In this document: positions 11,867 through 23,029 of the stretch, one piece after another
Layout: each line of letters starts with the position of its first letter
How positions within the stretch are numbered: the first letter of the stretch is position 1
Assembly (NCBI GenBank): GCA_021647245.1
Contig: JAKIVC010000022.1
Location: 1 to 54,275 of the forward strand
Length of the DNA: 54,275 nt
Direction of reading: 5' to 3'
From: Gammaproteobacteria bacterium
GTDB taxonomy: Bacteria > Pseudomonadota > Gammaproteobacteria > RBG-16-57-12
The notes under the pieces: generated by a model
Databases searched by the model: none
What the model saw: only the letters and a program-made list of their open reading frames with translations
What the model was told of the DNA's origin: nothing
Program-made: the position numbers and the translations under genes

Positions 11867-13255
11867 TTAGGGCTTAATATCGATATCTTCTATCGCCTCA
11901 TCCAGAATAGCATCCAGTTCGGCATCATTAATGTAGGGGTCTTCTTCGCCCTGCTGGTTATCATCGCCTCCTTCTGCGGCGGCGCTCTCCTCTGAGCTGC
12001 TGTTTTCGGCCAGCAGCTCATCGACATCAAGATCAGTGGCCACCACCTCTTCACTGGGATCCAGAGTCGGTACGGTACCCGCTTGCTCTTCATCATCCGG
12101 GTCAAGATCGAAAGCCAGGTCATCAAAGTTATCTGGGACTGCGGTCTCAGGGGCTGATTTTTCGGCTGTGGACTCAGCCACTGTGGCATCGACATCAATT
12201 TCTGCAAAAAGATTGTCCTCTAGCATCTCATCATCTGGCAGCGGTGGCTCCTCTACCGCTGAAGTGGTCTCTTGCAGTACTGGTGGCTCATCTTCGATCT
12301 CATCCGCGACAACGGCCGCAACGGCCACTGCGGCTGTCGCCGTTGCGGCAGCCGCAGGTGCCAGTTTGGTTTTGCTCTCGGCTGGTTGATCCATTTTAAG
12401 CACATCAACGCACATTTTCAGCTCTTTGCTAGCCCGCTCTATTGCAGCCAATTGTGCTTCAATCTCGGGCAGTGACTCTTTCATTTCATCATCACCCAGC
12501 GAGTTCATCAGGCCGTCCATGGCACTTTTTTGCCCATCCAGCATATTTTTGAGCTTATCCATTTCAGATACCGTCTCGGCACCTTCAATGTCATTCTCGT
12601 CCAAGTTTGCACCCGCCAGTGCTGAGAGTGATGAGAGCTGTAAAATCAGGTTATCCCTAAATTGATTGGCTGCTTGTAATTCGGCAAGGGTCTCTTCATC
12701 AAGCTCCCCACCTTCACTCAACCGCTTGACCAAGCTATCAATTTTATCCATATAGCCAGAGAGCTGTTGCTTAATAACACCACAGAGCGCTTGAGCATCT
12801 TGCCAAAGCCCGGGGTTGGGTTCGCCATCTGTATGTGGCTGTTGCGAAAACAGCGGTGTCAGGTATTCATAGAGATGCCCCCAGTGGGTAGTGGTCTCTC
12901 GCCCCTGGCCTTCGAGTGATTTGCACTCGGCTTGCAGGTATTCGATGCGTAATTTTAAGAGCTCTCCCTGCTCCTCTGTCAGTTCACTATTTTTAACGAC
13001 GTTATTGTCATCCAACTGAAGATGGCGGTGTGTTTTGTCAAGCAGGAATTGTAACGCAAGGGCGACATTGAAATTATTGCGCTCAGCCTCTTCGGCTGCC
13101 TCTTGTTTAGCCTGGGCAATTTCGGCCTCAATATCCACATCATTACCGCATTGCCACTGACGATAGAAGTAGTAGGCTAATCCGGCCGCAACCAGCACCA
13201 TTTCGGCCAAAAACAGAAGGGTAAGGGTAATTCCGACACTCATATTAAGACCCAC
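11867..13255 (-). CDS. Unknown membrane-anchored acidic coiled-coil protein
   Basis: I do not recognise a family. The 462-residue product has one N-terminal transmembrane helix (ITLTLLFLAEMVLVAAGLAYYFY). A long helical, coiled-coil-prone cytoplasmic region follows to about residue 300. Next come an Ala/Val/Thr low-complexity stretch (about 305-330) and a strongly acidic, Asp/Glu-rich tail (about 330-462) ending in DAELDAILDEAIEDIDIKP. The start is uncertain: GTG 13255 or ATG 13243. It lies 16 bases after the VWA gene in the same direction, so the two are likely functional partners. The acidic tail could bind basic proteins or cations. Confidence 0.6.
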   Translation of the reverse strand: MGLNMSVGITLTLLFLAEMVLVAAGLAYYFYRQWQCGNDVDIEAEIAQAKQEAAEEAERNNFNVALALQFLLDKTHRHLQLDDNNVVKNSELTEEQGELLKLRIEYLQAECKSLEGQGRETTTHWGHLYEYLTPLFSQQPHTDGEPNPGLWQDAQALCGVIKQQLSGYMDKIDSLVKRLSEGGELDEETLAELQAANQFRDNLILQLSSLSALAGANLDENDIEGAETVSEMDKLKNMLDGQKSAMDGLMNSLGDDEMKESLPEIEAQLAAIERASKELKMCVDVLKMDQPAESKTKLAPAAAATATAAVAVAAVVADEIEDEPPVLQETTSAVEEPPLPDDEMLEDNLFAEIDVDATVAESTAEKSAPETAVPDNFDDLAFDLDPDDEEQAGTVPTLDPSEEVVATDLDVDELLAENSSSEESAAAEGGDDNQQGEEDPYINDAELDAILDEAIEDIDIKP

Positions 13256-13271
13256 AGATTATGCTTTCTTT

Positions 13272-14990
13272 TCATGATGTGACCCCGCTTTGGCTGGCAA
13301 TCGATTTACGACGCTGAACCCACCATATTATTCCGCCGCCTGCAGCCAAGATAAGATTAAATATAATGAAAATAATAACCGCCAGCAGCACCCCACTCTC
13401 TGCATCGCTCTCTTCGGGCAAGTACTCAACTACGGCGGGGACGACAGGTGCGGGAGTGACAGCCGGTTGAGGTGGGTGCTCGACGGGCGGTGGTACTGTA
13501 TAGACGTGCTCGGCACCTGCCAAGGGTTGCAAAACCGTGCTGTTGGGATCTTCCAACGCGTTCAACACCTCTTGTGGCTTCATTGGCGGCGTTAAATCAA
13601 TTACCTTGGATTTAACACGATCAAAAGTGCCGGTCGATGCCGTGACTTCGATGCGGTAACGCCCATATTCGTTTAACAAAATATCACTGCGATAGTAACC
13701 CGACAGAGTGCCATTGGCCGCTCTGTCACCCTGGAGTGCAATGCGCTGACTGTGGCCACTGGGTAGATTTTCAACCAGATCGACACGCAGTGCCGAGAGC
13801 ACCTCTTGTTTGCTCAGCAAGTGGCCATCATCTTCCAGCCAGATATTGAACTCAAGGCGATCACCGCGCTGTGGTTGCTCTGGTAATACGTGTAACGCCA
13901 TTTTCAAATCAGTGATGATATAGGCTCTATTTGCCTCCCCTTCAGGCAGCATTGCCCACTCACCTGGCTCTGGGTTTTGAATGGTAATCAGATCAAACTG
14001 ATCTGAAACCAGCCACTTGATATCAGCGGGTGCACGGTCACTCTCCAGCACCCGACCACTGGGCAGCGTTAATGATACCCGAGTATCCAATGATGCCTTA
14101 TTAGCAATAATGGTCATCTCTCGGACGTTGTGATCGACCGAAAAGCGACCACTCCGCATCGGTAAAATATCAGGCTCTTTACTCTGCTCAAAAATAGAGG
14201 CAAATACCTGATGAAGGTCTTTGTCGGTACGTGCGATGTTAAAGTGGCCATCGGTTAAATTGGCTATACCCTGGAGCAGCCGCATATCCGAATTATCAGT
14301 AAATGCAATGGTATAGACCTGAATCTGTTTCTCTTTTAACACCGGCAACAACTTTGTGATCAGTTCAGCCGTGGCCTTTTCATCCTCAACAGCCGATGCC
14401 AGATCCACCTTGCCATCGGACATCAGCACCACCACATGCTTTCGCTGGCTATCCCACGCCTGCTCATAAACCCGAGTCGCGGCTTTGATTGCACCTGCCA
14501 AATTGGTATAGGCCCCCTTGTTTGAAATCTTCTCAACTGCTTTAAATAACAGATCATTATTCGAGGCGCTATGGGTGCCGGTTAGGTAGGCAACGGGGTA
14601 GCCATCATCACTAAAGCTGACGATCGATGCCCGATCATCTTTGCCAAGCAGAGAGATCAATAATTTAGCCGCCGGCTTGCGCAGATCATTCGGGTCATTT
14701 TTTTTCATTGAACCCGAACTATCCATAACCAGAACAATATCCAATCCCTGCTCTGCAATAGCGCGAGGCTTGGCCTCTCTTGGTGAGCGGTTAAGGGGTG
14801 CGGGAGAAGTCTCAGTCGCTACCGGTTGTGAAGGGTGTTCAGGCGGGCTTGAGGGGACCTCTTCCACCTTAAGCTGGGGCAGCGCTGGCAGCGCAATCTG
14901 CTCGGTAGCCGCTAAAGCCAAGGAGGGGCTTAGCAGCATTAAGCAGCAAAACAGAAAAAGTGGTGGTGATAAACGGGGCAGATTCATCAT
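13272..14990 (-). CDS. Secreted, membrane-anchored von Willebrand factor A domain protein
   Basis: The 572-residue protein has an N-terminal signal peptide (LFLFCCLMLLSPSLALA, then ATEQ) and a Pro-rich linker. A VWA domain follows from about residue 80 with an intact MIDAS motif DSSGS, a downstream conserved Thr (GAYTNLAGAI) and the MSDG strand. Next come a beta-rich region (about 290-480), another Pro-rich linker and a C-terminal transmembrane helix (LLAVIIFIIFNLILAAGGGIIWW) with a basic cytoplasmic tail. The VWA domain is therefore periplasmic and anchored at the C-terminus. Its target is unknown. The adjacent downstream gene encodes a matching membrane protein. Confidence 0.8.
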   Translation of the reverse strand: MMNLPRLSPPLFLFCCLMLLSPSLALAATEQIALPALPQLKVEEVPSSPPEHPSQPVATETSPAPLNRSPREAKPRAIAEQGLDIVLVMDSSGSMKKNDPNDLRKPAAKLLISLLGKDDRASIVSFSDDGYPVAYLTGTHSASNNDLLFKAVEKISNKGAYTNLAGAIKAATRVYEQAWDSQRKHVVVLMSDGKVDLASAVEDEKATAELITKLLPVLKEKQIQVYTIAFTDNSDMRLLQGIANLTDGHFNIARTDKDLHQVFASIFEQSKEPDILPMRSGRFSVDHNVREMTIIANKASLDTRVSLTLPSGRVLESDRAPADIKWLVSDQFDLITIQNPEPGEWAMLPEGEANRAYIITDLKMALHVLPEQPQRGDRLEFNIWLEDDGHLLSKQEVLSALRVDLVENLPSGHSQRIALQGDRAANGTLSGYYRSDILLNEYGRYRIEVTASTGTFDRVKSKVIDLTPPMKPQEVLNALEDPNSTVLQPLAGAEHVYTVPPPVEHPPQPAVTPAPVVPAVVEYLPEESDAESGVLLAVIIFIIFNLILAAGGGIIWWVQRRKSIASQSGVTS

Positions 14991-15240
14991 GCTTCTTTGG
15001 CTTTTATTATTTGACAGGCTTCAGTAGCGGATCTGACTCCGCACGCGGTTACACCATCAGCTATCGGTCAATAAAACAGAAAGGTTTAATCACCCTTTGG
15101 CTCTTTATTGCCACTGAGCGGCGCGGCCTCATTTTTCGGGGTGTTTTTCGCCCTCAAAAAACAGTGCCACACCCACTTGTTCGTTATGCCCTAACCAGCC
15201 AGCTGTACAAATTTAAAAATACCAAGCGCGACAACCCCTT

Positions 15241-16113
15241 TCATTCTGCCATCACCTGGCTGAATTTACGCTGATAGGTTTTCGCTAACTCAGGGGTGGT
15301 CGCTGTCAGGGTACGAATGATATTAATCATCATCTCTTTAGCGCCCCCACCTTTAAAGTCGGGGTTGCTTTTCAGAATCGACAACAGATGTTCCATCGCA
15401 GCCTGATAATCATGCTGGCTCATCAGGCAAATGGCCAGATCGAAGCGTGCCTCGGCATCATCAGGTGTGCTCTGAAGCTGCGCTTGCAGCGCATCGATTC
15501 CTACGGTTTTAACCGCGTACTCATTCACCGTAATTTGCCCGCTTAACCCCTTGCCTATATCACTGTTTCTATCCTGCTCTGGCAGCTTGGCAAAGAGAGC
15601 TTTGGCACCCTCAAGATCACCTATGTCGATAAAAATCTGCACCATATCCATGGCAATGCGGGTATTGGAGGGGTGTTGTCGAATCGCTTGGGACAACAGG
15701 TTAATCGCGGTGGCAGTCTCCCCTGCAAGGTGTTTTTCACGGGCCTGCTCGCGCAAAACATCGGACGCATGGAATACACCAAACTTTTTCAACAGTGCCC
15801 GCGCACTCAGCTCATCCAACTGACCCACCTCAATACCCACAACCTCACCGTTGCTGATCACCACCACAGTGGGTAAATTTTCGATCTGGTAGCGTTTTCT
15901 CAACTCAGGCTGCTCATCAATATCCACTTTGGCAAAGATAAACTGGCTGGCAAACTCCTTGGCAAGTTCACTAAAGAGGTCAGCCACCACAAAGCATGGC
16001 TCAGACCATACCCCCATAAACCCAACCAACACCGGTATTTTTTGGGAGTTATCAATTACAATCGACGGAAAATTTTTCTCCGTCGCTTCAAATATATACA
16101 CATCCTGGCTCAT
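15241..16113 (-). CDS. CnoX/YbbN-like thioredoxin-TPR chaperone
   Basis: The 290-residue protein has an N-terminal thioredoxin fold and a C-terminal set of tetratricopeptide repeats (GETATAINLLSQAIRQHPSN and further repeats). The active-site region reads WSEPC (Cys40), so the first Cys of CxxC is replaced by Ser. E. coli CnoX (YbbN) likewise lacks a CxxC and acts as a hypochlorite-activated holdase rather than a reductase. The fold and length match. The gene follows the PhnD-like gene and the 42-residue ORF after a 134-base gap, and 250 bases without a convincing gene separate it from the VWA gene. Confidence 0.82.
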   Translation of the reverse strand: MSQDVYIFEATEKNFPSIVIDNSQKIPVLVGFMGVWSEPCFVVADLFSELAKEFASQFIFAKVDIDEQPELRKRYQIENLPTVVVISNGEVVGIEVGQLDELSARALLKKFGVFHASDVLREQAREKHLAGETATAINLLSQAIRQHPSNTRIAMDMVQIFIDIGDLEGAKALFAKLPEQDRNSDIGKGLSGQITVNEYAVKTVGIDALQAQLQSTPDDAEARFDLAICLMSQHDYQAAMEHLLSILKSNPDFKGGGAKEMMINIIRTLTATTPELAKTYQRKFSQVMAE

Positions 16114-16247
16114 ACTAATCTCTATAATGTTTTGCGTTTTTATCCAAGGGATAGAATAACAGTTAAATCCTCAAAACTGTATCGAGTTTGTAGAGCCTAC
16201 GGGCTAAATGCACCCGTAATGAGCACTCTTTTACCTCTTTGCCCCTT

Positions 16248-16376
16248 TCATGTTCCGCCCCCTTTTAACACTCGATCGACTACCCATAAAATGGCCGCAC
16301 AATATAAAAATACCGACCCTAATAGCAATACCGCAATGGCGGCAAAAATATCAGGGGCTTTTATCAGTGTGGTCAT
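16248..16376 (-). CDS. Predicted 42-residue membrane protein
   Basis: A small open reading frame starts four bases after the PhnD-like stop. It encodes MTTLIKAPDIFAAIAVLL, continues as one hydrophobic helix of about 24 residues (to ILWVV), and ends in a basic DRVLKGGGT tail. The layout is that of a single-pass small membrane protein such as an enzyme accessory subunit. I do not recognise it. There is no separate ribosome binding site of quality (AAAAGG abuts the ATG), so translation would depend on coupling to the upstream gene. Confidence 0.5.
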   Translation of the reverse strand: MTTLIKAPDIFAAIAVLLLGSVFLYCAAILWVVDRVLKGGGT

Positions 16377-16380
16377 CCTT

Positions 16381-17127
16381 TTAATTTTTTAGCGTCTCCA
16401 TCAAGTCGATCATAAACTCTGTATCTTCCTGCTCGACCACCTTCCAGCTTTCAATACCTAGCCCTTGTAATACACCCCGCCCTTTTTCGTGCGCGGGCAT
16501 GGCCAGTAAATTTTCCAGTATCTCATCACGTTTATGGCTTATCTGCGGCCCGGCTAACAGCAGGTGATGAATGTCATGAATATCGCTGCGCACCAGTGAT
16601 TTTAATTTACTGCGGGTCATTTTCGATAAGTTTGTATAGGTGTCTGCGAGGAAAAAACCTACGTCAGCATCCTGAGTAATGAGGTCTTTTGCTACAAGGA
16701 CGTAGGTTGCCCGGGTCGCTGCGGTGGTATTTTTTGCATCCAAATTTGCAGGCTCAAGCATCAGTGAGCAGACCATATTGACATCCGGATCGTCAGTTTT
16801 TGAGATACGCAGCCCTGGCTGCAACTCGTCTACATTCGAGACACTGCTTTCGGCACTCACCGCAATAATCGCCTCATCAGCCGCATTATCTGGGCAGGCA
16901 ATCGGTACAAAACTTTTTTCTCGCACCAGTTTTGATGCATCAAACGGGTTGGCATAGATCAAATCTATTTCGTCATTTGCAATGGCTTTACGCTGTGACT
17001 CAAAGTCATTATAGAGTTCAAGATGGATCTGTTCATTAAGGCTTTTTTGTAGCCAGGTGTTGAAAAAAAACCAGCCGGAGATGAACTCCGGGTTGAAGTC
17101 TGGGCTAACCGTGAATGTATATTTCAT
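16381..17127 (-). CDS. PhnD-like substrate-binding protein without a signal peptide
   Basis: The 248-residue protein resembles the periplasmic phosphonate/phosphite-binding fold (PhnD family). Typical features are a FESQRKAIANDEIDLIYANPFDASKLV segment, ATRATYVLVAKDLITQDADVGFFLADTY, and a helical end (HEKGRGVLQGLGIESWKVV). The start MKYTFTVSPDFNPEF has no signal peptide, and GGAG eight bases upstream fixes it, so the protein should be cytoplasmic. No ABC transporter gene is adjacent. It sits at the end of a GTPase/Roadblock/PAS gene set. A role as an intracellular ligand sensor is my inference. Confidence 0.7.
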   Translation of the reverse strand: MKYTFTVSPDFNPEFISGWFFFNTWLQKSLNEQIHLELYNDFESQRKAIANDEIDLIYANPFDASKLVREKSFVPIACPDNAADEAIIAVSAESSVSNVDELQPGLRISKTDDPDVNMVCSLMLEPANLDAKNTTAATRATYVLVAKDLITQDADVGFFLADTYTNLSKMTRSKLKSLVRSDIHDIHHLLLAGPQISHKRDEILENLLAMPAHEKGRGVLQGLGIESWKVVEQEDTEFMIDLMETLKN

Positions 17128-17164
17128 GTTGTTTACTCCAGAGATAGAAGGGATCTACAAGTGG

Positions 17165-17638
17165 TTACGTTAACGTCTCATAGAGTGCTTGTGCTTCCTT
17201 TACTTTGGTTTTGGAGGGGCGACGGCGTACCGAGGTGTAACCTAAAACCTTACCCTCTCTTATGTTGGGAATAACGGTGGCATAGACCCAATAGAACCCG
17301 CCATCTTTACGCAGGTTTTTGACATAGCCGTGCCACTTCTTCTTTTCTGCCAGGGTACTCCATAGCCCCTGAAAGGCGGCGGCGGGCATTGCCGGGTGGC
17401 GCAAAATATAGTGTGGTGCACCCATCAGCTCTTCTCGTGTGTAACCCGACATCTCAACAAATGATTCGTTGGCATGGGTGATTGCCCCCTTTAGGTCGGT
17501 GCGGGAAACAATCAAACGCCCATCAGGCACTGGGGATTCGATCTCTGTGTAGAAAATTTTTCGTTGTGAATCATCATGAAATGTCAGCACCATTTCACGG
17601 TATTCTCCGATAATATCGGCTGTATTCATATCGTTCAT
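17165..17638 (-). CDS. PAS domain sensor protein (Aer-like single domain)
   Basis: The 157-residue protein is essentially one PAS domain: LIVSRTDLKGAITHANESFVEMSGYTREELMGAPHYILRHP, then WHGYVKNLRKDGGFYWVYATVIP and a terminal basic helix. The hallmark series is closest to the N-terminal PAS of the aerotaxis receptor Aer, which binds FAD. No output domain is attached, so it must work through a partner. GAGGAG six bases before ATG 17638 decides the start over in-frame upstream codons. It lies between the Roadblock and PhnD-like genes. Confidence 0.82.
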   Translation of the reverse strand: MNDMNTADIIGEYREMVLTFHDDSQRKIFYTEIESPVPDGRLIVSRTDLKGAITHANESFVEMSGYTREELMGAPHYILRHPAMPAAAFQGLWSTLAEKKKWHGYVKNLRKDGGFYWVYATVIPNIREGKVLGYTSVRRRPSKTKVKEAQALYETLT

Positions 17639-17685
17639 ATGCACTCCTCGATTGCAGTAGCCGTGCTCTATTTGACTCAACCGGG

Positions 17686-18048
17686 CTACAATATTTTGGT
17701 CACATCTTCTGCTGCTCTTTTCACATCAAGAAAGATCAGCCCCAGCCGTGCCGTCGGTTTTGCCATAACGGAGATCACCGCATCTCGGCCAGCATGGGCC
17801 ATCAATACATAGCCGTTATTGCCCTTAATCAGCACCTGCTCCAGCTCGCCCCGCTGTAGCTCTTGTGAGGTGCGGTCGCCCAGTGACAACATCGCTGCAC
17901 CCATGGCACCGACTCTATCTTCATCCATGCCGGCGGGAAGCATCGCCGCTATCATGAGTCCGTCGGTAGAGATGATGGCCGATGCTTCAATATCAGCGGA
18001 GCTTCCATTCAGGTCACTTAAGATGGAGGTTAATAAATCTGAACGCAT
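17686..18048 (-). CDS. Roadblock/LC7 domain protein
   Basis: The 120-residue single-domain protein has the Roadblock/LC7 pattern: a first helix, then IEASAIISTDGLMIAAMLP, then GAMGAAMLSLGDRTSQELQRGELEQVLIKGNNGYVLMAHAG and a final RLGLIFLDVKRAAEDVTKIL. Bacterial members such as MglB and the conservon protein CvnB regulate small Ras-like GTPases, and one is encoded two genes upstream. A GGAG site eight bases upstream supports ATG 18048. Confidence 0.88.
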   Translation of the reverse strand: MRSDLLTSILSDLNGSSADIEASAIISTDGLMIAAMLPAGMDEDRVGAMGAAMLSLGDRTSQELQRGELEQVLIKGNNGYVLMAHAGRDAVISVMAKPTARLGLIFLDVKRAAEDVTKIL

Positions 18049-18090
18049 AACGTGACTCCTATAATCCTGCTTGGTAATAAATCAAACTAA

Positions 18091-18732
18091 TCAATTTTTT
18101 TGGATGTACCGCTCACTGAGAAACCAGATAAGTTGCATAAAAGCCGGTTGATTCAACGTCGGCAGTCCGCTGATCACCAGTGAAAATCGCTGCTCTCCGA
18201 TATAGAGCGGCCAAAACCCCAGCTCGCTATCCCCCCCGGCATTGACTACCGCCCACGCAGAAGATGCCATACTCAGATTGTTTTGCAGCAAGCCCGTGTG
18301 CCGCTGGTGCAAGGAGGCGAGGTCGGCACTGAGTGCTGAAATCTCTTCTGCTGCCTCATGGGCAAAGCCATGGGTGGCCAGATAAAACCCTTCTTCATCG
18401 GCTAACAACGCCTTTCCCGAGCCACAAAGCGCCGCCAGTAACGGGGGAGCGACCTCTTCCAGCCTTCCTTTGGGTGAGTGCTGCTTATCGTCAAAGCCTT
18501 GCAGCCAACCCAGTTTTTGAGATCGATGCAGCAGTGACAGTGCATCTTGCTCATCCGCAATATTGGATAATTTTTTCAGTTTTTCCAGTGTCAAATAACG
18601 GCTTTTCGGTTTTGACAGCAGTGAAAATAGCAGCTGCCTTGCCGGGTCACTATGGTTACTTGAAATGGCGTAGTATGCCCCTGCAGGGGTCGGCACCACG
18701 TAATACTCTGTCATTAATTGTAATTCGCTCAT
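18091..18732 (-). CDS. Unknown protein between GTPase and Roadblock genes
   Basis: The 213-residue protein belongs to no family I can name with confidence. The first part (residues 1-80) is helical and could form a small winged-helix unit (LLFSLLSKPKSRYLTLEKLKKLSNIADEQDALSLLHRSQKLGWL). The second part (about 95-205) has alternating strands and helices (GKALLADEEGFYLATHGFAHEAAEEISALSADLASL) reminiscent of a divergent Roadblock/longin fold. Its place directly after the GTPase gene, with no gap, recalls the third conservon component (CvnC) of actinobacteria. That equivalence is inference. Confidence 0.55.
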   Translation of the reverse strand: MSELQLMTEYYVVPTPAGAYYAISSNHSDPARQLLFSLLSKPKSRYLTLEKLKKLSNIADEQDALSLLHRSQKLGWLQGFDDKQHSPKGRLEEVAPPLLAALCGSGKALLADEEGFYLATHGFAHEAAEEISALSADLASLHQRHTGLLQNNLSMASSAWAVVNAGGDSELGFWPLYIGEQRFSLVISGLPTLNQPAFMQLIWFLSERYIQKN

Positions 18733-19269
18733 CTATTCGCCCAACCATGGATCAAGTGTAAACAGCAGCGCCTCTACCAGCTTGGAAATATCTTCACCCT
18801 CTCGGGCATCTACCTCAAAGAGTGGTGGGTTAATACCGTGCTCTTGAATTTTCTTGTGGTAATCTTCCAGTGAGGGTTCGGGACTGACATCCATTTTTGT
18901 AATACCGATGGCTACCTTATTTTCCGCAATAAAGTTTTTAAAGGCATCGAGAAAAAAAGCCATATCTTTAAAGGGATCGGCGCGGCTATTATCCAGCAGC
19001 AAAACCAACCCCAGCCCACCCTGGCTAAGAATTTCCCACATAAAGCTGAAACGCTCCTGACCGGGCGTGCCATAGAGGTGAATTCGTTCATTATCACCCA
19101 ACAGCATGACACCGTAATCCATGGCAACTGTGGTTTCCGGCTTGTGATCTCGGGCCATATCACTGGCATGTTCATCGGTCTTAACCACCGGTGAGTCACT
19201 AATGGAGCTAATCGCCGTTGTCTTGCCCGCACCCACCGGCCCGGTGAAAATAATTTTATGATTGCTCAT
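18733..19269 (-). CDS. Ras-like small GTPase (CvnD/COG2229 type)
   Basis: The 178-residue single-domain GTPase has a P-loop GPVGAGKT at residues 10-17 and a switch I region with TTVAMDYG near 47. Switch II is YGTPGQERF near 66, where most Ras proteins have DTAGQE. The base-specificity motif is TKMD (124-127) instead of NKxD. Those variants occur in the prokaryotic group that includes the conservon GTPases and relatives of MglA. ATG 19269 is chosen over the upstream TTG. The partner Roadblock protein is encoded in the same run of genes. The target of the switch is unknown. Confidence 0.87.
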   Translation of the reverse strand: MSNHKIIFTGPVGAGKTTAISSISDSPVVKTDEHASDMARDHKPETTVAMDYGVMLLGDNERIHLYGTPGQERFSFMWEILSQGGLGLVLLLDNSRADPFKDMAFFLDAFKNFIAENKVAIGITKMDVSPEPSLEDYHKKIQEHGINPPLFEVDAREGEDISKLVEALLFTLDPWLGE

Positions 19270-19311
19270 GCTATTGTCCAAATTTATGCGCGATTAAGGA
19301 CGCTTTAGTTT

Positions 19312-19468
19312 GAGACCCTTGCACAACAGGGGCGCGAGAAAAAAGAGATAAAATTTGACTGATTAAGGCATAAAATGCAGCGAGTAGTGCGCTATTCACC
19401 AGGTTTTCAACGAAAATAAGGTGCATTTTAACCTTTTTCATCCGTGCATCCTCTCGTGCAAAGGTCTC
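19312..19468. mobile_element. MITE-like repeat family B, copy 1
   Basis: The 157-bp element has inverted ends: TTGAGACCCTTGCAC on the left and GTGCAAAGGTCTCAA on the right. Inside, TAAAATGCA and TGCATTTTA form a second inverted pair. It has no gene of its own. The right end overlaps the end of the 396-residue gene and encodes its last codons. Related copies lie at 44502 and 48301. Confidence 0.75.
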
Positions 19469-20628
19469 AATTTGTTTAATATTTTCCCAAACAAGCCATG
19501 GAGCCGGTGCTGTTTTATGGGCGCAGGCTCTATTAAGGAGTCAGCCATTCGATGGGCAGAGCCGGCCAGCCCGATTGCATGCGCTGCACTGTAGAGTGAA
19601 AACACCTGACTATATGGGATACCCAATACCTGGCTGATCAAGGGAAGCTTGCGGGGCTGGCCTATGAGCAGCGTGATAGCACGCATCATGCTGGGTGAAA
19701 CACGCAAGCGGGTGATGTTTGGCCAGTGCCTCAGATAGACCGGCGCATTTAAATCTGTCCCGAGGGGTACTCTCCCTTGCGCACTCCATAGCGCCACTCG
19801 CCATAAAAATGCATCCATTGAGCTACCCGCTTTGGTCTCAACAGCACGATACTCCAGTTCAAGGCTATTCTTCCTATTATGGGTGCGCATTTTCACCTCA
19901 AGGGTACAGAGTGGTGAGGTGCAAAGCCGCTCCAGCCAGGTTTCATTAATGGAGGTAATTACTTTTTTTGCCTCCGGAAGAACCGTAATTGTCTTCCACT
20001 CACCGCCAATTCTAATACTGAGTTGAACGGCACTATTCTTTTTTACAGCCCGTTTAATTGCGCTAGCAACTTCCCCTTGAAGGTGGTTTTCAGGGTCGTA
20101 GAAATAGCTCTCTTTGGACTCCGCCTGGCTAAAGTCCACCGGGGGTATGCGAGTGCGGCTAACGGGGCGTTTTTTAGGTTCAACTCGACTCACCTTTTCA
20201 GCTGCGGGCGCTTTAACCTGCTCTGTATGGCGAGTAACTGCGTCCTCTTTTAACTCACTCTTCATCGCTATGGCTTCACCAACCCGCCGAGGCTCAAGCA
20301 GCGGTAACTGGGAGACTTTTTTGATTGTTTTTATCAGCATATCGACCCGAATGGGGCGTGCCACATAGTGAGTATCTTCGAGCTGGGGGTCGTTCACTGA
20401 GAGTACAATGATGTGTCGCAACGGGTAGTCGTTACGCACTTTTTCTAACAGGCTTTCACCATCAACACTGTCCATATTAACGATGGACATATCGGCGGAT
20501 GCGGCATCATCAGTGAGCGTGCAGCACTCTTTACCGGGGCCATTAAAGGCCATACGCAGCGCTTCGCATGACCGTTCATCCATGCCGTAAACAGTGGCTG
20601 TTAAGCTATTTTCTCCCGATGCTTTCAT
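19438..20628 (-). CDS. Receiver-like multidomain protein of unknown function
   Basis: The 396-residue protein starts with a region like a degenerate response-regulator receiver (ADMSIVNMDSVDGESLLEKVRNDYPLRHIIVLSVND, then HYVARPIRVDMLIKTIKK). This resembles the D-x-x-D/S/P layout, but the phosphoacceptor is not clear. A basic linker follows (about 120-165), then a C-terminal region of about 220 residues that I do not recognise, with FLWRVALWSAQGRVP and a helical end. The last residues (LRPLHERMHG) and the stop codon are encoded by the inverted terminus of repeat B copy 1, so the original C-terminus has probably been replaced. Confidence 0.6.
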   Translation of the reverse strand: MKASGENSLTATVYGMDERSCEALRMAFNGPGKECCTLTDDAASADMSIVNMDSVDGESLLEKVRNDYPLRHIIVLSVNDPQLEDTHYVARPIRVDMLIKTIKKVSQLPLLEPRRVGEAIAMKSELKEDAVTRHTEQVKAPAAEKVSRVEPKKRPVSRTRIPPVDFSQAESKESYFYDPENHLQGEVASAIKRAVKKNSAVQLSIRIGGEWKTITVLPEAKKVITSINETWLERLCTSPLCTLEVKMRTHNRKNSLELEYRAVETKAGSSMDAFLWRVALWSAQGRVPLGTDLNAPVYLRHWPNITRLRVSPSMMRAITLLIGQPRKLPLISQVLGIPYSQVFSLYSAAHAIGLAGSAHRMADSLIEPAPIKQHRLHGLFGKILNKLRPLHERMHG

Positions 20629-20643
20629 CGCATAACACCCTCT

Positions 20644-21366
20644 TTACAGATCAAAAGCCTCAGCTTGTTTATGCCACTCGGTTTGTACAGCCTGTGGCCA
20701 CTCTGGACATTTTTTATAGCTCACTCGAAAAGCATCTCTATTCTCTGTGTGCCGATAAATCATCAACAGCTCCAGGCTTAACTCCCCCTGCTGTGGCGCC
20801 TGCTGCAACGCTTGCTCCAATAACTTTTGAGCGGTTTCAATCTGCCCGCTATTCAACAGGTCACGCACCTCATCTATCAGTGCGGTATCGGCCACATGTG
20901 CCACGTCTACCTGCTCTTCACTTATATTCAGTGAGCCACTCACCGCTGCACTTAAACGGGAGTAGCGGGTGAGTGGCATCATATTGGTTGCCAAGAGGCC
21001 ACGCTGCATCCCCGCTTTAAACAGAGCAAGCTGAGGCTTGGTCAACCGCGCAGCAACGCCCCGTAACAGCCGCAATCGCAAGGCGCTGCCGTTGTCGCCC
21101 AGCGCGATAAAGAGATCGAGCAAGGAGCCGTATAACCCTTCCCGGTGATCATGTTGATGATATATTTTTAAGCGTTGCAGATGGGCCGCCAGATCGGCGG
21201 GGACTCTCTGAATACGGTGAGCAAGGTGCTCTAATATTTTATCATCCATGTCGCCCGGTCTACTCTGCGCATAATCGCTGGCAGAAAAAAAACAGGGATC
21301 CTGTCGTAAAAGGTCACTCTCAATGCTGTCCGTAGCGGGTACATCACAACCTAGTACATCAACCAT
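20644..21366 (-). CDS. FimV C-terminal-like helical repeat protein
   Basis: The 240-residue, probably cytoplasmic protein is built of helices. Near the C-terminus, IDEVRDLLNSGQIETAQKLLEQALQQAPQQGELSLELLMIYRHTENRDAFRVSYKK is a TPR-like unit close to the conserved end of FimV/TspA proteins, which organise type IV pili and polar structures. The N-terminal FimV parts (LysM, transmembrane) are absent. ATG 21366 is chosen; an in-frame start at 21408 would lie within the fold-back element. The gene heads the signalling run with 15 bases before the receiver-like gene. Confidence 0.55.
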   Translation of the reverse strand: MVDVLGCDVPATDSIESDLLRQDPCFFSASDYAQSRPGDMDDKILEHLAHRIQRVPADLAAHLQRLKIYHQHDHREGLYGSLLDLFIALGDNGSALRLRLLRGVAARLTKPQLALFKAGMQRGLLATNMMPLTRYSRLSAAVSGSLNISEEQVDVAHVADTALIDEVRDLLNSGQIETAQKLLEQALQQAPQQGELSLELLMIYRHTENRDAFRVSYKKCPEWPQAVQTEWHKQAEAFDL

Positions 21367-21616
21367 CTTATATTGCCTGGTCAGTTGATCTGTCAGTGCC
21401 CATGGCAAGGCGCGTTTCGCAGGGAATTGTATTCTCTTTACAAGAAACGCAACACCGCCATGGGTACTGACAGATCAACCCTGCGGGCGTTTCTGTGGCA
21501 CTCCGCCTCGGCGTTATAGCGCTTGCCAAGGGAATAACCATTACCTGCGAGCTATGCCTTGATGCGAAATGCCACAGAATCGCTGACCAGGCAATATAAG
21601 GTGGTTGATGTACTAG
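21351..21616. mobile_element. Nested fold-back element overlapping a gene start
   Basis: The outer arms of 34 bases (21351-21384 and 21583-21616) are inverted copies with one mismatch. Inner arms of 23 bases (21384-21406 and 21457-21479) again differ at one position. A third pair, TTCTGTGGCA (21491-21500) and TGCCACAGAA, lies inside the right half. The left outer arm contains the start of the FimV-like gene. The only outer-arm mismatch turns its ATG into GTG in the right arm, where translation on the plus strand would stop after seven codons. No transposase or ORF is present inside. Confidence 0.8.
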
Positions 21617-21672
21617 ATGAATAGCCGACATGGTTTTGGTGCTCTTAAAGATTTATAAAAGGGTTAATTTCT

Positions 21673-21768
21673 ATGCCACATGATAGAACTCGCACCCCAT
21701 ATGACGGCAATTTGGTGACAAAGTTAATGGCAATCGTTGATGAATACAGAAAAATAACCTTACTTTAA
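21673..21768 (+). CDS. Possible short ORF or gene remnant
   Basis: A 31-codon open frame beginning MPHDRTRTPYDGNLVTKLMA lies in the otherwise empty stretch between the fold-back element and the alcohol dehydrogenase gene. There is no clear ribosome binding site and no recognised family. It could be the start of a gene truncated long ago, or chance. Confidence 0.2.
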   Translation: MPHDRTRTPYDGNLVTKLMAIVDEYRKITLL

Positions 21769-21835
21769 GTGGCAATACCAGGTCATATTATAATAGCGCG
21801 GTTCAGGTGGTAAGAAATAGAGAGGGGAGCTACCG

Positions 21836-23029
21836 CTATAAACGGGCGGACAATAGGCTCATAACCTCCTCATCAAACAGAACAATCGGGTTTGTTTTCA
21901 TGCTGCTACCCCGGCAGTTTTCTACCACCTTCGTAAGCATCGATGGGGTTACCCCGTAGTGAGACAGACCCGGCAATTGCAGATGTGCCGTCCACTCGCT
22001 AAGCTGCGCGGTCAACATCTGCTGAGCCTCTTCATCACTTTGGTGATGTTTACGACTGAATAGGCGACCGACCTCGGCGTAGCGTTTCAACCCTGGGTTT
22101 TGCGGGTCCCTCGATTGCATCGCAACAATATTCACCTTGCTTGCCTCGGCAACCAGGGTGCCGCAAGCGATACCATGGGGGATGGGGAAGAAGGCACCCA
22201 ATGGTGAGGCGAGGCCATGCACTGAGCCTAGGCCTACTTGCGCCAGGGTCACCCCGGATAACCAGGCGGCATAGAGCATGTTATCTTGCGCCTCTGTGGC
22301 CTGGTCACCCTTTTGATACCAATCCAGCAGACTATCTCGCACCCTCCTCAAGCCGCTCAGAGCCAGTGCATCTGTGAAAGGATTTGCCTTGGTTGAGAGG
22401 TAGGATTCCAGCAGTTGGGTCAGCGCATCCATGCCATTACCGGCAATAAGCTCAGCGCTACAACCGTTTAGCAACAGCGGATCCAGAATCGCATACTCTG
22501 CCACCAGCTGGTCATCCCGAAATGATTTCTTGAACCCCTCTGCCCCTTGCATACTCAGCACTGCGTTTTTAGTCGCTTCACTACCGGTGCCCGCTGTTGT
22601 TGGCACCGCAATAAAGGGGGTGGATGGGCCACGATAAATTTTCTCCGGCCCAACACCTTCCAGATGATCCATCACTGAGTTACCGGGCTTCAGCAGCCCG
22701 GCAATCGCCTTTGCGGCATCCAGCACACTGCCACCACCAATACCTAACACCACTTCAATCTGTTGAGGGTGGTATTCGGCTACCACTTCATCAATGCACT
22801 GTGGTGATGGCTCACCACTGATCACAACCTGCTGCCACTCAAAACCATCCACCCGCAAAGCATCCATTAGCCACTGCCATTGCGACTGCTGCTGCAGAGA
22901 GCGGCTACCAGTGACCAGTAGCACTTTGGTACCGTACAGTTTCATAATCAGCGGAATTTTAGCAAAACTGCCCCGCCCATATTCAATGCGGGGAACTCTG
23001 GAAATAGAAAACGAGGTGAGCGACATCAA
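21836..23029 (-). CDS. Iron-containing alcohol dehydrogenase family protein
   Basis: This is a 397-residue NAD(P)-dependent group III alcohol dehydrogenase. The N-terminal Rossmann-like part carries LGIGGGSVLDAAKAIA (dinucleotide site). The middle has the family signature (AVPTTAGTGSEATKNAVLS). Metal-ligand His residues lie in GSVHGLASPLGAFFPIPHGIACG near residues 270-285. The substrate is unclear; relatives act on simple alcohols, lactaldehyde or glycerol analogues. The start is one of two adjacent Met codons. It is transcribed away from the DUF481 gene, with a palindrome between them. Confidence 0.88.
   Translation of the reverse strand: MMSLTSFSISRVPRIEYGRGSFAKIPLIMKLYGTKVLLVTGSRSLQQQSQWQWLMDALRVDGFEWQQVVISGEPSPQCIDEVVAEYHPQQIEVVLGIGGGSVLDAAKAIAGLLKPGNSVMDHLEGVGPEKIYRGPSTPFIAVPTTAGTGSEATKNAVLSMQGAEGFKKSFRDDQLVAEYAILDPLLLNGCSAELIAGNGMDALTQLLESYLSTKANPFTDALALSGLRRVRDSLLDWYQKGDQATEAQDNMLYAAWLSGVTLAQVGLGSVHGLASPLGAFFPIPHGIACGTLVAEASKVNIVAMQSRDPQNPGLKRYAEVGRLFSRKHHQSDEEAQQMLTAQLSEWTAHLQLPGLSHYGVTPSMLTKVVENCRGSSMKTNPIVLFDEEVMSLLSARL

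Follow-up and report, generated by a model that had tools for sequence, protein, structure and literature searches.

The source of the signals that act on Group 3 Mgl GTPases has been an open question since these proteins were first described. The question arises again for the 54,275-nucleotide stretch of a gammaproteobacterial genome analysed here (hereafter the window), in which genes for a small GTPase and two Roadblock proteins are followed by genes for a stand-alone PAS protein and a cytoplasmic PhnD-like protein. This operon is almost certainly a Group 3 Mgl operon, and the PAS and PhnD-like proteins are likely to be inputs to its module. The PAS-PhnD pair, together with other sensors found at the same site in relatives, suggests redox state, gas, zinc and a ligand as candidate inputs, so that the question can be addressed experimentally in cultures of methanotrophs, Thiothrix and Sphaerotilus.

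A conserved seven-gene operon

On the minus strand, positions 16381-21366 hold a conserved operon of seven genes encoding, in this order, a TPR protein, a receiver-like protein (RecWH), the GTPase, a winged-helix-Roadblock protein (Rbl2), a second Roadblock protein (Rbl1), the PAS protein and the PhnD-like protein. These are seven of the eight genes listed, on the same strand and at the same positions, in an initial annotation of this DNA; the eighth, a small membrane peptide, stands apart from them, as discussed in the last section. For comparison, loci were gathered with the GTPase as query, the best matches being taken, and 71 of them had sufficient flank. The five-gene core order TPR-receiver-GTPase-Roadblock2-Roadblock1 is retained in 63 of these 71 loci and the complete seven-gene order in 38, figures that are not class-wide frequencies because the loci were chosen as best GTPase matches. 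The conserved gene order that the initial annotation had proposed as a check is thus found in many genomes, and the GTPase-Roadblock module with its PAS and cytoplasmic PhnD-like proteins is kept as a unit outside the window, a grouping that is not accidental. The hosts belong to several gammaproteobacterial families, to which Sphaerotilus has to be added, and include methanotrophs and sulfur oxidisers of varied lifestyle; the complete operon occurs, for example, in Methylotuvimicrobium buryatense 5G (locus L053). Pairwise distances of all seven proteins correlate (r 0.73-0.92, 39 loci), as common descent alone would also make them do; the possibility that GTPase and Roadblock proteins come from unrelated phylogenetic groups, named beforehand as a refutation, did not hold.

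The stretch was at first called an island. Its GC content (49.0%) resembles that of the flanks (50.3%), and it is therefore better described as an operon than as a compositional island. A mobile defence system was also considered and rejected: there is no GC deviation, and PADLOC gave no convincing match to the operon proteins, the sole one being a weak, generic P-loop match of the GTPase to mad8 (E 6.6e-4). When the operon proteins were compared with phage families, none matched, apart from a weak match of the PAS protein.

The GTPase and its Roadblock partners

The GTPase (18733-19269, minus strand) is MglA-like, and the genome encodes no second protein of this kind; its Pfam matches, to Ras and ATP_bind_1, are in keeping with the earlier description of a Ras-like protein. 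In our alignment (A1), motifs G1 to G3 are invariant. The G3 motif reads GTPGQ, with T68, P69, G70 and Q71 invariant and G67 nearly so, and the G2 motif contains an invariant T46-T47 pair, with Thr in place of the Group 1 Arg. According to the available text of the 2014 survey, GTPGQ in G3 and Thr replacing the Group 1 Arg in G2 define Group 3, described from beta- and gamma-proteobacteria with a receiver-like protein, MglA and one or two MglB proteins (PMC4316618).

Two MglB-like proteins are encoded in the window. Rbl1 (17686-18048, minus strand) is a canonical Roadblock/LC7 protein, as first annotated (Robl_LC7, E 1.3e-15), and its invariant D29-G30 corresponds to the Asp-Gly pair of Group 2-5 MglB. 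Rbl2 (18091-18732, minus strand; AlphaFold pLDDT 93) had been left without identity in the initial annotation, apart from a suspected winged helix. We read its N-terminal region as winged-helix-type, and the protein can now be identified: in the model, residues 88-211 resemble Roadblock/MglB structures (Z up to 11.8), making it a second Roadblock protein. The operon thus shares with Group 3, as far as the survey's available text describes it, the GTPGQ and G2-Thr GTPase, two Roadblock proteins, the receiver-like gene ahead of the GTPase and an identical order, and differs by the additional Aer-type PAS and cytoplasmic PhnD-like proteins. Neisseria and Snodgrassella loci were recovered with the window GTPase as query, and a core tree, built without Group 1, 2, 4 or 5 sequences, groups the window operon with these homologues.

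The initial annotation drew parallels with both MglA/MglB and the actinobacterial conservons. The first parallel stands, Group 3 being closest. The second does not: a conservon (CvnA-D) likewise has genes for a Roadblock protein, a small GTPase and a small protein of unknown function side by side, but the window operon has no CvnA-type histidine kinase, its GTPase has TKMD where the conservon NxFD G4 motif would be, and in place of the small unknown protein it encodes a Roadblock fusion with no DUF742 match. Conservon membership is ruled out on these three grounds. The sensor kinase was correctly noted as absent, since no kinase gene occurs in the operon and its flanks (11867-23029); it is, however, not a missing part, because Group 3 has a receiver-like partner without a histidine kinase. 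By analogy, the operon may also correspond part by part to the polarity module of Myxococcus xanthus (MglA/MglB/MglC/RomR and SgmX), which has a GTPase, a Roadblock pair, a receiver-containing partner and a TPR protein, and whose output is type IV pili at one pole. There, however, the GTPase is of Group 1, with an intrinsic Arg finger and TVPGQ instead of TT and GTPGQ, the input is the Frz chemosensory system, and the genes are dispersed.

RecWH and the possibility of a transcriptional output

RecWH (19438-20628, minus strand; AlphaFold pLDDT 84) consists of a receiver-fold N-terminus, a variable linker, a C-terminal helical region and a terminal amphipathic helix. Residues 6-112 of the model resemble receiver domains (Z 12.5), in agreement with the initial description, and the linker (residues 122-160) is modelled with low confidence. 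In residues 312-357, a region that the fold comparison barely covered, the model shows three helices (312-351) and then a short strand. In the 2014 survey, the C-terminal part of the receiver-like protein was expected to form a winged helix, and a role in transcription was suggested (PMC4316618). It can thus be asked whether the same Group 3 module has a transcriptional output, a C-terminal winged helix of RecWH binding DNA while PAS and PhnD-like proteins tune expression through the GTPase. The modelled helices and strand and the winged-helix-type region of Rbl2 are in keeping with this. However, winged helices are often protein-protein domains as well, and every one of the 66 RecWH homologues carries a basic amphipathic helix of the membrane-targeting type at its C-terminus (the motif occurs in 2% of shuffled tails), which would be unusual for a transcription factor. 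Furthermore, the acidic pair is missing from the receiver part, and the window copy has Asn at the phospho-acceptor position. We consider a transcriptional output unlikely, although it is the strongest of the alternatives to a pilus or polarity output.

The TPR protein and a possible link to type IV pili

The first gene of the conserved core encodes a TPR protein of 240 residues, counted from the ATG at 21366 (20644-21366, minus strand; TPR_19, E 2.6e-5), with homologues at the equivalent position in 74 of 90 loci. It had been labelled FimV-C-like and, on that basis, linked to pili or cell polarity. This identity is unsupported: neither the C-terminal nor the core FimV model matched the window protein, which matched TPR families and, weakly, PilW. 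The link itself fares better outside the window: in four Leucothrix/Thiotrichaceae loci the core is immediately followed by FimV/HubP genes, and Neisseriales have TPR homologues with an N-terminal membrane segment. One TPR homologue (L106) matched SgmX weakly (E 0.0013), which we do not count as evidence because TPR repeats match widely.

Other observations point in the same direction. PilT is encoded in 47 of 47 genomes with the GTPase and in 185 of 227 without it (p 2.5e-4, uncorrected for descent), an association that may stem from reduced genomes lacking both. In Snodgrassella, placed in Group 3 by the authors of the study, mglB mutations are reported to alter colony flares, which are ascribed to type IV pili, and mglB genes to aid gut colonisation (PMC11112851). 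It should, however, be noted that the mutated gene is an orphan mglB and that the mgl operon of this species has neither PAS nor PhnD.

Alternatively, the module could serve the general sensing of energy or metabolites and act on something other than pili or transcription (for instance a metabolic enzyme or storage), the pilus signals being indirect. The varied lifestyles of the methanotroph and sulfur-oxidiser hosts, the GTPase-free versions of the operon described below and the seven-gene form in the window, beside which no pilus gene is found, would fit such a platform. The FimV genes of Leucothrix-type loci, PilT in every GTPase-carrying genome and the Snodgrassella mglB genetics in the available account (PMC11112851) speak against it, and we regard it as improbable, somewhat more so than a transcriptional output. 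A type IV pilus or polarity state is therefore the output that we favour, by a modest measure.

The PAS and PhnD-like proteins as candidate inputs

The PAS protein (17165-17638, minus strand) has 157 residues and consists of a PAS domain only, without HAMP or chemoreceptor signalling domains, so that its annotation as stand-alone is confirmed. Its proposed role as a redox sensor is strengthened: the family profile matches the PAS domain of Escherichia coli Aer (8dik, E 2.8e-44), and H76, R80, W93, N108 and R138 are kept as equivalents of the FAD-contact residues H53, R57, W70, N85 and R115 of Aer. To judge from sequence, the protein is probably an FAD-binding redox sensor. The window copy carries Ala at a site that is Asp or Glu in almost every relative. 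Aer contains the same type of PAS domain with the same contact residues, but joined to a HAMP/chemoreceptor partner that the window protein lacks, and CetB of Campylobacter is a known case of an Aer-type PAS protein that stands alone. Unlike in Aer and CetB, the predicted partner here is the Roadblock/GTPase module.

The PhnD-like protein (16381-17127, minus strand; PF12974, E 2.5e-31) begins directly in its domain, with MxYxFTVSPDF throughout the family and, as judged by eye, no signal peptide, in support of the cytoplasmic location first proposed. It shares the PF12974 fold family with the solute-binding proteins PhnD and PtxB and with ArrX-type sensors; ArrX is an example of a PF12974 protein that serves signalling. 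In contrast to PhnD and PtxB, the window protein is cytoplasmic and has no adjacent transporter genes. In a profile alignment, its conserved TDDPDV faces a Ser/Thr-rich loop of PtxB, which we take to comprise the phosph(on)ate ligand-binding residues. The subfamily is rarely found apart from this module: among the genomes sampled, 13 gave a strong match, and in 11 of these the gene lies beside it.

PAS and PhnD are both present in 42 loci and both absent in 31, and to explain this joint pattern on the core tree takes at least 9 changes, compared with 24 for shuffled patterns. Both genes are missing from Neisseriaceae and several Thiotrichaceae loci, and the equivalent operon position in relatives holds other stand-alone sensors (protoglobin, CZB, FIST or an extra PhnD). 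That the two genes are co-transcribed passengers without action on the GTPase, as the loci lacking them might suggest, is very improbable given their joint gain and loss, the fixed order after Rbl1 across several families, the exchange of sensor domains at their position and the scarcity of this PhnD subfamily elsewhere.

Two nearly complete genomes (G148 and G103) keep the receiver and Roadblock genes with no such GTPase anywhere, and G148 also retains PAS and PhnD. Since the partner genes persist without it, the GTPase is not always the switch. A tentative generalisation is a plug-in sensing platform in which Roadblock proteins and a membrane-tethered pseudo-receiver, with or without a GTPase, would accept exchangeable stand-alone sensors for flavin redox, heme gas, zinc or oxidant (CZB), the ligands of FIST and the cytoplasmic ligand of PhnD. 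In the open-licence literature, we found no account of a PAS-PhnD extension of Roadblock or Group 3 operons; as far as we searched, this extension, the exchange of stand-alone sensors at one site and the GTPase-free versions appear to be new. The Group 3 and Snodgrassella descriptions in the available texts (PMC4316618; PMC11112851) also contain no mention of the TPR gene, of an amphipathic tail, of a winged helix fused to a Roadblock domain or of GTPase-free forms.

Proposed working of the operon

Sequence and structural models show which parts the operon has; how they sense, how this reaches the GTPase and what the module acts on are inferred. On balance, we lean towards a Group 3 Mgl operon to which two stand-alone proteins of sensor type have been added, with a pilus or polarity output. 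RecWH would hold the assembly at the membrane, and Rbl1 and Rbl2 would form a Roadblock platform setting the GTP/GDP state of the GTPase. This platform would be informed of the redox state of the flavin by the PAS protein and of a small ligand in the cytoplasm by the PhnD-like protein. In its GTP-bound form, the GTPase would then act on type IV pili or on the identity of the poles, with the TPR protein as a possible intermediary. The net effect would be to feed respiratory state and ligand into decisions on surface motility or attachment. If this is true, respiration would be coupled to pili or polarity without chemoreceptors or histidine kinases, and the GTPase-free forms would be Roadblock assemblies able to signal alone.

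Small open reading frames and repeat elements

The small membrane peptide proposed as eighth member corresponds to an ORF for 42 amino acids with one hydrophobic segment (16248-16376, minus strand) and no Pfam match. The ORF exists, yet no counterpart is found downstream of PhnD in other loci, not even in two of the same genus, and we therefore place it outside the system. A dispersed, MITE-like inverted-repeat element of about 159 bp (19311-19469, minus strand), the copies of which were aligned, spans the 3' end of the RecWH gene and most of the gap before the GTPase gene. It has 12 additional partial copies in the genome and is missing from a same-genus locus (L020). An ORF at 19271-19441 was discarded as a gene, as it sits within this repeat. 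A second MITE-like element, of 266 bp with 43-nt inverted ends (21351-21616), has many copies in the genome and no match in a plasmid collection. It lies within the 5' end of the TPR gene, whose start is uninterrupted in L020; in the present genome, its insertion has severed the native start codon.

Operon Organization and Conservation

The operon is genuine and widely conserved. Seven close-packed genes on the minus strand (16381-21366) are real, and Pfam domains were assigned within them for the TPR protein, the Ras-like GTPase, Roadblock, PAS and the PhnD-like protein (PF12974). The initial annotation described an eight-gene GTPase-Roadblock-PAS-PhnD signalling island at 16248-21366; its first seven genes are borne out, whereas the eighth, a 42-aa hydrophobic ORF (16248-16376), has no counterpart in either of two same-genus loci. 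The window is one contig of a gammaproteobacterial genome of 2.57 Mb (99.5% complete), the nearest named relatives of which are genomes of uncultured Chromatiales or gammaproteobacteria. The stretch downstream of the operon, read in the same direction (11867-16113), encodes a thioredoxin-TPR protein and two membrane proteins, one with a VWA domain and one acidic and of unknown family, which are not conserved together with the operon.

A GTPase profile scan of 84,980 species genomes yielded 80 named loci, taken as best GTPase matches and scored with one profile per protein; 71 had enough flank to be judged. The order TPR-RecWH-GTPase-Rbl2-Rbl1 (the core) is kept in 63 of these 71 loci, and is followed by PAS and PhnD in 38, including Methylococcaceae, Methylothermaceae, Chromatiaceae, Halothiobacillaceae, Thiothrix, Spongiibacteraceae and Sphaerotilus. 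In Neisseria, Snodgrassella, Eikenella, Aquitalea and Leucothrix, the core alone is present. PAS and PhnD are jointly present in 42 loci and jointly absent in 31; two were scored otherwise, one (L076) with both genes in overlapping ORFs and one (L106) with divergent PhnD copies without PAS. On the core tree, the pair requires at least nine changes, against a mean of 24 with shuffled labels. Protein distances correlate at 0.73-0.92 among 39 complete loci, values to which vertical descent contributes.

Within an even sample of the class (274 genomes), the GTPase was found in 47 genomes, Rbl2 in 26 and strong PhnD-subfamily matches (E 1e-70 or better) in 13. The PhnD gene stands beside the module in 11 of these 13, and a divergent copy is located elsewhere in two (G029, G174). 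In G029, an SCP2-domain gene comes before this copy and secretion-type genes come after it; the same arrangement is recorded at L151 (4906-6143), where a divergent cytoplasmic PhnD-like gene is paired with the SCP2-domain gene and no Roadblock module lies nearby.

A Group 3 Mgl Core

The operon core is of a known kind, Group 3 Mgl. Three things define this group in the original description: GTPase motifs that it shares with Groups 2-5, its restriction to beta/gamma-proteobacterial hosts, and its gene neighbours, namely one or two MglB and a protein in which a variable linker joins a receiver-like N-terminus to a winged-helix-like C-terminus (Wuichet and Sogaard-Andersen, PMC4316618). The testable features of the window operon clearly fit: in alignments, the GTPase has G1, GTPGQ and the Thr pair in G2. 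The predicted model of Rbl2 (pLDDT 93) contains a Roadblock domain (residues 88-211), whose best fold matches are a Roadblock protein of Streptomyces (Z 11.8) and MglB of M. xanthus (Z 11.0). There are therefore two Roadblock proteins per GTPase, like the 1:2 systems treated in the same 2014 paper (PMC4316618).

In RecWH, residues 6-112 match the receiver fold with Z 12.5 across 105 residues, and no acidic pair follows strand 1. The phospho-acceptor position is Asp in 59 of 66 homologues and Asn in the other seven, as in the window; the strand-5 Lys, kept in 64 of 66, is Arg in the window. Every one of the 66 sequences ends in a short amphipathic stretch that is basic and follows the pattern GLLSRILKKLRG, which turns up in only 2% of shuffled tails; the tails carry a mean net charge of +4. 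Such a tail resembles the membrane-targeting tails of MinD-type proteins.

Probable Sensor Modules

The profile of the PAS family hits E. coli Aer with E 2.8e-44. The FAD contacts in the Aer crystal structure, H53, R57, W70, N85 and R115 (PMC9668731), are all retained in the window PAS as H76, R80, W93, N108 and R138, the last four being invariant in 27 homologues. In the RHPxMP motif of the window protein, RHP is followed by Ala (residue 83), where 42 of 45 sequences carry Asp or Glu. Like CetB of Campylobacter jejuni, a known PAS of Aer type (PMC2628428), the operon PAS is stand-alone. The PhnD-like family opens directly with its domain and, judged by eye, has no exported leader; transporter genes were not found beside the PhnD-like gene. 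The family differs from PtxB by a conserved TDDPDV at the place of the PtxB Ser/Thr stretch.

Relatives carry other stand-alone sensor-type genes, placed between the Roadblock genes or behind them: protoglobin (L031, L036, and the same type by sequence in L046, L054, L057, L067, L070), CZB (L056, L090), FIST (L023), extra PhnD copies (L061, L062, L106, L149) and a STAS domain with a match below the cut-off (L024). In Halothiobacillus-type operons, a small unknown protein (MDTREVVNLLADIAGQVE...) without a Pfam match is encoded between Rbl2 and Rbl1 (L042 11177-11734, L045, L061 12145-12573); it is possibly another sensor.

GTPase-free forms also occur. The window's genome, which has a single GTPase of the operon's family, holds a second cassette of RecWH-like, Roadblock, protoglobin, TPR and Rbl2 genes with no GTPase (L148 2913-6955, contig C20 of that genome, G000, at about 10.9-15.0 kb), also present in same-genus L155. 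Genomes G148 (L149) and G103 (L150) keep TPR, RecWH, Rbl2 and Rbl1, together with PAS, PhnD or protoglobin (PAS and two PhnD in G148); their operons have lost the GTPase, and none of this type was found anywhere in these genomes (98-99% complete). Judged by the open literature searched, the new features are the operon's link with an Aer-type PAS and a cytoplasmic PhnD-like protein, the swapping of sensor modules, the GTPase-free forms and the RecWH membrane tail predicted from sequence.

A Possible Output to Pili or Polarity

An output to type IV pili or polarity appears somewhat favoured, with support from several sides outside the window itself. FimV/HubP-type LysM genes directly follow Rbl1 in four loci of Leucothrix and other Thiotrichaceae (L068, L071, L073, L084; FimV C-terminal matches at E 8e-9 to 8e-13). 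All 47 genomes with the GTPase have PilT, versus 185 of the 227 that lack the GTPase (Fisher p 2.5e-4, without correction for descent), and the window genome contains PilT-family genes and a full FimV. TPR homologues of Neisseriales (470-560 aa) have an N-terminal membrane segment. Snodgrassella is stated to carry Group 3 mgl; mutation of an orphan mglB gives soft-agar flares attributed to type IV pili and alters host competitiveness, and gut colonisation data indicate that all three mglB genes are beneficial (PMC11112851). In M. xanthus, MglA works on pili together with the TPR protein SgmX (PMC7519303), and its state is set by RomR/RomX, MglB and RomY (PMC9481161). By analogy, RecWH may be the functional counterpart of RomR, Rbl1/Rbl2 those of MglB/MglC, and the TPR protein that of SgmX.

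Repeat Elements in the Operon

A dispersed repeat, about 159 bp long with inverted ends (TTGAGACC.TTGCAC...), covers the stop codon of RecWH and the space between RecWH and the GTPase gene (19311-19469); 12 further partial copies are found across the genome, and it is missing from same-genus L020. An element of 266 bp whose inverted ends measure 43 nt (21351-21616), and of which about ten good copies exist elsewhere in the genome, is inserted after codon five of the TPR gene. The in-frame ATG at 21366 comes from this element; in L020, the start of the TPR gene is uninterrupted (MSAIHPDCDL).
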